DNA of 37,466 bases from assembly GCA_021791655.1 (NCBI GenBank), contig JAJYWD010000006.1:1-37466 (forward strand). The letters are read 5' to 3'. The number at the start of each line of letters is the position of its first letter. Position 1 is the first letter of the stretch. Positions 10,631-11,965 of this stretch are shown one piece after another. The notes under the pieces were generated by a model. It saw nothing but the letters and a program-made list of their open reading frames with translations, searched no databases and had not been told where the DNA came from. Position numbers and translations under genes: made by a program. The DNA is from Nanobdellota archaeon (GTDB lineage Archaea > Nanobdellota > Nanobdellia > Parvarchaeales > Parvarchaeaceae).

Positions 10631-10639
10631 ATATTAAAT
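10631..10639 (+). promoter_or_regulatory. TATA box of the phase-variable pilin-like gene
   Basis: The element atattaaat, preceded by a purine-rich stretch (aaaaagaaac, BRE-like), is centred 26-27 bases before ATG 10662. That is the spacing for a leaderless archaeal mRNA starting exactly at this ATG, and it argues that 10662, not 10772, is the true translation start. Confidence 0.6.
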
Positions 10640-10661
10640 CGTGATAGTACATAGTGATGGT

Positions 10662-10739
10662 ATGAAGCCGGAGTCCTCCGTATATATTACAGACAGACAG
10701 ACAGACAGACAGACAGACAGACAGACAGAAAAATTCTAG
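10662..10739 (+). CDS. OFF-frame leader peptide (25 residues) of the pilin-like gene
   Basis: ATG 10662 reads MKPESSVYI, then repeats of TDRQ encoded by the tetranucleotide tract, then EKF and stop TAG 10737-10739. This is what ribosomes would make with the present ten copies. In this frame the signal peptide and pilin ORF are not reached. With 11 copies (or 8) the same ATG reads through into RKILADKKS followed by the QSALEY pilin motif with no stop. With 9 copies it stops at TGA 10740-10742. Only one frame in three gives the surface protein. Confidence 0.55.
   Translation: MKPESSVYITDRQTDRQTDRQTEKF
10689..10729 (+). repeat. tetranucleotide tract, ten perfect copies of ACAG
   Basis: Ten uninterrupted ACAG units (10689-10728) plus one extra A. 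The tract lies inside the 5' coding region between ATG 10662 and the pilin motif. Four-base units change reading frame with each gain or loss, the classic substrate for slipped-strand mispairing. In the in-frame state it would encode TDRQ repeats in front of the signal peptide. Confidence 0.95.
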
Positions 10740-10771
10740 CTGACAAAAAATCCCAATCCGCCCTCGAGTAC

Positions 10772-11965
10772 ATGATGACGTATGGCTGGGCCATACTCAT
10801 CATAGTCATAGTCGCTGCCGTATTATATTCACTAGGCATATTCAACCCCACCTCCTTCGTAGCCACAGAATCCGTGACGGGATTCGCAGGATTAGGCAGC
10901 ATAGAGGCGCAGTGCCAGGCCGGTGGGCTGGCGATAAGTCTGGGAAATTCTATAGGAAACGCGATAAACATCACCGGCATAACGGTTACCGTCAACGGAA
11001 ATACGTACTCTACGATTTTCCCGTCCTATGCAGGATACGCGTCAGACTACAATATCCAGCCTTCCATGTCAAACAGCTTCATGCTAGTCAACTCCTGCCC
11101 CAACAATACGGGACACTTCTCGGCCACGGTAACTGTCTCCTACACGGAGCCTTACCGGGTTTTCCCCGGGCCTTATCAATCTACAGGCACTATATCCGGA
11201 GCATCCGTTACGCAGTATCCGCTTTACACTTCTTCGTTAGTAGGTTACTGGCCGTTTGATGACGGCTCGGGAACCACTATCTCTTCTCTGGTGGGGAACA
11301 TAGGCTCTCTCACTCAAGCGAATTCTGATAATGGTACAGGCGGCGTAAGCTGGCAGGCGGGCAATTTCGGGTCAAGCGTTTCTATGAACGGCGGATTCAC
11401 GAACCAAACCACCGGCAAGTGCCTGTCCGGGGACTGTCCATATTTCTCATCTTCCGGTAGCGTTTCTTTGTCCGGTGCCCTAACCATTAGCCTTTGGGTT
11501 AAGCCGAATACTGCGCTTCTTCCCTGGATGTCCGTCGGTATTGTTGGCAACGGCGGGTGCAGTACGAATTCGATTCAAATAAGTTATGGCGGCTCTTCGT
11601 ATAGCAATAATCAAGTCTTTCTAGAGCTTGGCAATTCTACGAACGGTTGCGTAGGTTCGATATCTGGGGGCTCTCTGACTATTGGACAATGGAATTTCGT
11701 TGTTGCTGTAGTAAATGATAATACTCACTCCGATGCGCTATATGTAAATAATAATCTGATTGGTACTAACTCATTTGTTGGACAAGACAACCTTAATCTA
11801 GAACCCAGACTGGGCGGAGGTATCTGGTCAACATACTACAACGGTAAGTGGTACGTTGGTTATCTTGATGGACAGGTAGACGATCTTAGAATTTACGACG
11901 TTCCATTGGGAACGCCAGCAACCTCTGCTCTCTACCGATCCTCGTCGCCGAACTTTGAGCATTGA
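10772..11965 (+). CDS. pilin-like surface protein with C-terminal LamG (concanavalin A-like) domain; 5' end out of frame
   Basis: The first in-frame ATG (10772) falls inside the pilin hydrophobic core MMTYGWAILIIVIVAAVLYS. Just upstream in the same open frame, codons 10727-10771 encode RKILADKKS and QSALEY, a class III prepilin signal with Glu at +5, so the real N-terminus lies before 10772. No ATG, GTG or TTG precedes it in frame back to the stop at 10655-10657; the promoter points to ATG 10662, out of frame by two. Residues about 155-390 form a LamG-like jelly roll: LVGYWPFDDGSG, LTISLWVKP, GQWNFVVAVVND, LYVNNNLIG and DGQVDDLRIYD. Several N-x-S/T sequons and paired Cys fit a secreted glycoprotein, likely an adhesin or glycan-binding pilin. 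Confidence 0.8.
   Translation: MMTYGWAILIIVIVAAVLYSLGIFNPTSFVATESVTGFAGLGSIEAQCQAGGLAISLGNSIGNAINITGITVTVNGNTYSTIFPSYAGYASDYNIQPSMSNSFMLVNSCPNNTGHFSATVTVSYTEPYRVFPGPYQSTGTISGASVTQYPLYTSSLVGYWPFDDGSGTTISSLVGNIGSLTQANSDNGTGGVSWQAGNFGSSVSMNGGFTNQTTGKCLSGDCPYFSSSGSVSLSGALTISLWVKPNTALLPWMSVGIVGNGGCSTNSIQISYGGSSYSNNQVFLELGNSTNGCVGSISGGSLTIGQWNFVVAVVNDNTHSDALYVNNNLIGTNSFVGQDNLNLEPRLGGGIWSTYYNGKWYVGYLDGQVDDLRIYDVPLGTPATSALYRSSSPNFEH

Follow-up and report, generated by a model that had tools for sequence, protein, structure and literature searches.

In Neisseria, the pilE and pilS genes form a pilin family with a conserved 5′ part, variable bodies and mosaic copies. In the Haemophilus influenzae contingency loci lgtC, lic2A and lic3A, a tetranucleotide array forms part of the 5′ coding region in genes that determine surface traits, with several such loci per genome and variable repeat counts. 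The unit in lgtC is GACA, present in 8-38 copies (PMC2651432). EppA-type archaeal pilins carry a signal made up of a basic region, the conserved residues Q+1 and E+5, and a hydrophobic stretch (PMC4371748). Here we describe a locus that shares traits with each of these systems. The window (the whole stretch of DNA that was analysed, 37,466 nucleotides) belongs to a genome of 831,740 bases in 28 contigs, 98.7% complete, whose source is a tiny, probably host-dependent DPANN archaeon related to the Nanoarchaeota.

The likeness to H. influenzae extends to the position of the array, the number of loci and the variability of counts, and the archaeal ACAG unit equals that of lgtC, GACA, read in a different register. 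Unlike in H. influenzae, however, the host is an archaeon, the repeat lies within a predicted cleaved prepilin leader, a single type of unit and a single promoter/leader module serve one large pilin family, and the targets are adhesins rather than glycosyltransferases. The signal motif is shared with the EppA-processed type IV pilins, as is the presence of an A24 peptidase and a secretion ATPase in the genome, whereas the large lectin-type bodies, the repeat-bearing leader and the lack of a curated model match set the present proteins apart. All three traits named above for pilE/pilS recur here, but each ACAG copy has a promoter and a start of its own, and its frame is set by repeat number.

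The ACAG array and reading frames of the window locus

The following features were identified:

1143..3386, + strand: type II/IV secretion (archaellum/Tad-like) ATPase, T2SSE, with no further PF00437 match in the genome
10598..10613, + strand: palindrome GCGGATCGTGATCCGC, 16 bp, a candidate operator common to the promoter module
10631..10639, + strand: TATA-box-like ATATTAAAT, about 26 nt 5′ of the ATG, suggesting a leaderless start
10662..10688, + strand: start codon and constant leader MKPESSVYI, which runs in frame into the pilin in short-repeat MKP-type paralogues
10662..10739, + strand: OFF-state reading frame, a 25-residue peptide with stop TAG 10737
10689..10729, + strand: ACAG array of 10 units and one further A, coding for TDRQ repeats whichever frame is read
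10730..10753, + strand: end of the leader, ILADKKS when read in the pilin frame, 5′ of the predicted prepilin cleavage site
10754..11965, + strand: pilin-like ORF with QSALEYMMTYGWA at its start, 403 codons and a stop codon, not in frame with ATG 10662 and intact although OFF
11456..11908, + strand: LamG/concanavalin A-like lectin domain PF13385 (Pfam, E=5.2e-15, residues 237-387 of the stretch from 10748)

Tandem-repeat analysis described the array as period 4 with 10.2 copies and 100% matches, and ACAGx3 matched eight times in the window as compared to zero times in dinucleotide shuffles. The locus has the anatomy of simple-sequence-repeat phase variation, namely a pure repeat in the 5′ coding region with a unit that is not a multiple of three. 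Translation from ATG 10662 yields MKPESSVYITDRQTDRQTDRQTEKF, 25 residues, and then reaches TAG 10737. From this ATG to the Q codon of QSALEY the distance is 92 nt, and 92 mod 3 is 2. No ATG, GTG or TTG was found 5′ of the motif in the window pilin frame, and the sole internal start of that frame, ATG 10772, lies inside EYMM, so that a start there would lose the pilin signal. One additional ACAG unit, or two fewer, puts ATG 10662 in frame; with one more, exactly 32 residues precede the Q. The sequence-only reading had claimed as much, that is ten perfect units between ATG 10662 and the pilin ORF, a pilin frame shifted by two, no other start before the pilin core, frames joined by +1 or -2 units with a 32-residue leader before QSALEY, and a 25-residue peptide ending at TAG 10737, and all of these points were confirmed. 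The placement of the TATA box (10631-10639) likewise agrees with the leaderless start at ATG 10662 that it had proposed.

A family of pilin genes behind a common 5′ module

An ACAGx4 search of the 28 contigs returned 11 perfect arrays of at least four units, located on C4, C9, C16, C17, C18, C19, C20 (three), C24 and C28. All of them stand in front of coding sequence for one and the same QSALEYMMTYGWA pilin signal (...SQSALEYMMTYGWAILIIVIVAAVLYSLGIF), and wherever the contig extends far enough a start codon is seen on their other side; contig C19 stops right after QSA, the first three codons of the signal. What the sequence-only reading proposed as a switch belongs to a multi-locus set: the window array, as it had not noticed, is one of 11. 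A protein search with the pilin signal gave 32 matches, 30 of them at E<=1e-6, and about 22 paralogues, the window copy included, have the 5′ end ATATATT-(ACAG)n-AAAATT...QSALEY in common. A single-locus accident was ruled out, as 11 arrays front one gene family.

The module extends into the promoter. At up to two mismatches the palindrome GCGGATCGTGATCCGC has 16 sites in the genome and none outside pilin-module promoters: 13 are situated before ACAG pilins, and three (C2:8744, C7:46 and C22:16045) in the same promoter where a contig end cuts it short. In 14 MKP-type copies and in C19 about 100 bp 5′ of the array, comprising palindrome, TATA box and ATG, are held in common, and 90 bp around the window TATA box are conserved among 14-15 paralogous modules. 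Upstream identity is at background level beyond about 125-150 bp, and downstream DNA identity exceeds 0.9 in the initial 60 bp of the signal and has dropped almost to background at about 270 bp. The genome was assembled as a consensus, and many of its contig ends adjoin ACAG pilin modules; ends within or beside a module were seen in C2, C6, C7, C9, C15, C17, C18, C19, C20, C22, C23, C26 and C28. The repeated 5′ module is thus probably one of the main reasons why the assembly breaks, and the real copy number may be higher.

Frame state, array length and their explanation

The paralogues served as an internal control, with 21 copies of the genome having a visible start. Copies with at most three consecutive perfect units, either short or interrupted (e.g. 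ACAGACAG only, or ACAGATAGACGGACAGACAG), were in frame in 11 of 11 cases, at start-to-Q distances of 60, 63, 66, 72, 81 and 96 nt. Among the ten copies with 4-20 pure units, four were ON, with 4 (C9), 7 (C20:13944), 15 (C19) and 17 units (C20:262), and six were OFF, with 9 (C17), 10 (C4, C18 and C20:17969), 13 (C24) and 20 units (C16). The start-to-Q distance mod 3 accounts for the state of all copies, and the repeat contains no stops.

The combination of ACAG array and signal was found in 2 of 55 genomes searched, this one included. The other, of the same genus, is Nanoarchaeota archaeon isolate WH2.bin119 (JAKAAW010000003.1, here G015), where three of three 2-unit copies are in frame and a 6-unit copy is out of frame. 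Its leader begins in another phase relative to the repeat, so that the in-frame rule is satisfied with other lengths. Short and long copies differed in frame state with Fisher p=0.0039 in the own genome and p=0.0007 when pooled with G015, values that are only indicative because the cut was set after the data had been seen and the copies are related, their counts being not fully independent. The six distinct in-frame distances of the short class are sturdier evidence than the p-value. Since short copies use the same ATG and are always in frame, and copies with long pure arrays are so only in about one third of cases, the leader is truly coding and long arrays break it, which supports the phase-variation switch proposed by the sequence-only reading. 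Copies in which the repeat is short or interrupted are best read as stable ON versions.

Elsewhere in the genus the arrangement is different. ACAGx4 was absent from 26 other genomes, and 40 of 40 pilin 5′ ends from these had an in-frame ATG and no tandem repeat of ACAG or any other type near the signal. In the GTDB r220 collection, from which the own genome was possibly left out, the pattern occurred in one contig, and no viral contig matched it. The gene 5′ of the ACAG pilins L013 and L016 (C18, C20:13944) and L063 (G015) has a nearly identical 3′ end, and this arrangement of upstream gene and ACAG pilin may be conserved between the two species.

We consider it highly probable that these genes form a multi-locus pilin/adhesin repertoire, with the window locus as one member, that undergoes slippage-driven translational phase variation. 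Transcription would begin at or near ATG 10662, and replication slippage or unequal exchange between copies would add or remove ACAG units and so shift the frame between start codon and pilin ORF. One third of unit counts would then give the full prepilin and the remaining counts a short peptide (25-39 residues at the counts observed in the OFF copies of the genome). In the ON state a TDRQ-repeat leader would stand 5′ of the predicted prepilin-peptidase site, and, as this site follows the repeat, the motif suggests that the mature pilin would be independent of the ON count. We infer that the repeat is a clean switch and not a length modulator. With about ten loci carrying long arrays, independent switching could give cells varied combinations of LamG and other adhesins. 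No MutS family protein was found in the genome, and slippage may consequently be less corrected. More tentatively, and with somewhat less than even confidence, we suggest that the ten or so, or more, adhesive pilin genes constitute a phasome whose members derive from one spreading module (palindromic operator, promoter, start codon, ACAG array and cleaved signal) recombined before different bodies, with common transcriptional control, independent ON/OFF states and swapping of promoters and tails at the repeat, perhaps varying the host cell that is bound or evading viruses.

Arrays also differ between otherwise near-identical sequences. C17 and C20:17969 have the same 90 bp upstream and differ at 1 of 60 downstream bases, with 9 and 10 units, respectively, and the 90 upstream bases of C20:262 are identical to those of C6 and C23, with 17 pure units versus 5 with two substitutions. 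Array length has therefore changed faster than the point sequence, a variation seen between paralogues only. Identical 90 bp upstream stretches are moreover joined to different tails across the array, and several unrelated promoters join at one TATATT-ACAG point, so that exchange through the array is likely besides slippage. This reshuffling, together with the restriction of similarity to the 5′ module, would also be expected if the array were mainly a recombination joint swapping promoters, leaders and bodies, with OFF copies as a silent archive like the Neisseria pilS cassettes and frame shifts as by-products. We regard this as improbable, since OFF copies retain their own promoter and start, long arrays span 4-20 units, the C17/C20:17969 pair differs by one unit and is otherwise almost identical, and short copies are without exception in frame.

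It is less probable still that the OFF copies are recent pseudogenes, in which drift lengthened the arrays and the broken genes are now decaying. The gene family is redundant and the frame is lost in 6 of 10 long-array copies, a proportion that the absence of selection would predict, but where the contig is complete (C4, C16, C20:17969 and C24) OFF copies keep ORFs of 371-479 codons without stops and with lectin or DUF2341 domains, and other inactivating damage was seen in no long-array copy. Two OFF bodies gave a dN/dS of about 0.22, with synonymous sites near saturation and the pair too diverged for a strong test. An alternative start 3′ of the array was found in few OFF copies; C16 has an in-frame TTG there, from which some OFF-state translation might result. 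That the real counts are always in frame, or that translation begins elsewhere, is hardly credible: many contigs do end within about 150 bp of arrays, i.e. in hard-to-assemble regions, but the arrays are at most 81 bp and thus below typical short-read length, the OFF copies C4, C16 and C24 are internal to contigs with long flanks, the same pattern occurs in a second, independent assembly (G015), most OFF copies offer no alternative start, and consensus errors from mixed counts would themselves mean variation.

In the open-access literature we found no slippage-type phase variation in archaea. The mechanism is already known in bacteria; for a DPANN archaeon, a set of several such loci appears to be new. 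A survey of 117,861 genomes found short tandem repeats to be scarce in archaea (PMC12699852). According to a 2025 review, it is an important unanswered question why genomes rich in phase-variable loci seem to occur in pathogens only, and archaeal data are considered informative for it (PMC11868660). If true, the multi-locus slippage set described here would bring this strategy into another domain of life and into the attachment of microbes to other microbes.

Pilin-like products and probable pilus machinery

The PF13385 domain was detected in 6 of 10 bodies tested, including the window copy. The C24 body contains DUF2341, a domain of proposed archaeal pilus-tip adhesins (PMC4858521), and two other bodies gave weak beta-propeller-type matches only. 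Read directly, the window signal consists of DKKS and, after the predicted cleavage site, QSALEYMMTYGWAILIIVIVAAVLYSLGIF, with the basic region, the Q+1 and E+5 residues and the hydrophobic stretch described for EppA-type pilins. No curated pilin or class III signal model in Pfam or NCBIfam matched it, and the proteins are for this reason filed as pilin-like only. The genome encodes one A24 prepilin peptidase (PF01478, on C15), and the window ATPase is likely the pilus motor. A 699-aa ORF (3365-5464) without a family match overlaps the end of the ATPase gene; its product may be a membrane protein that partners the pilus machinery. Two very large ORFs are also found in the window, at 25585-29445 (1286 aa, without a DUF2341 match) and 30832-34542 (1236 aa, with a sub-threshold DUF2341 match), and both possibly encode giant surface proteins.
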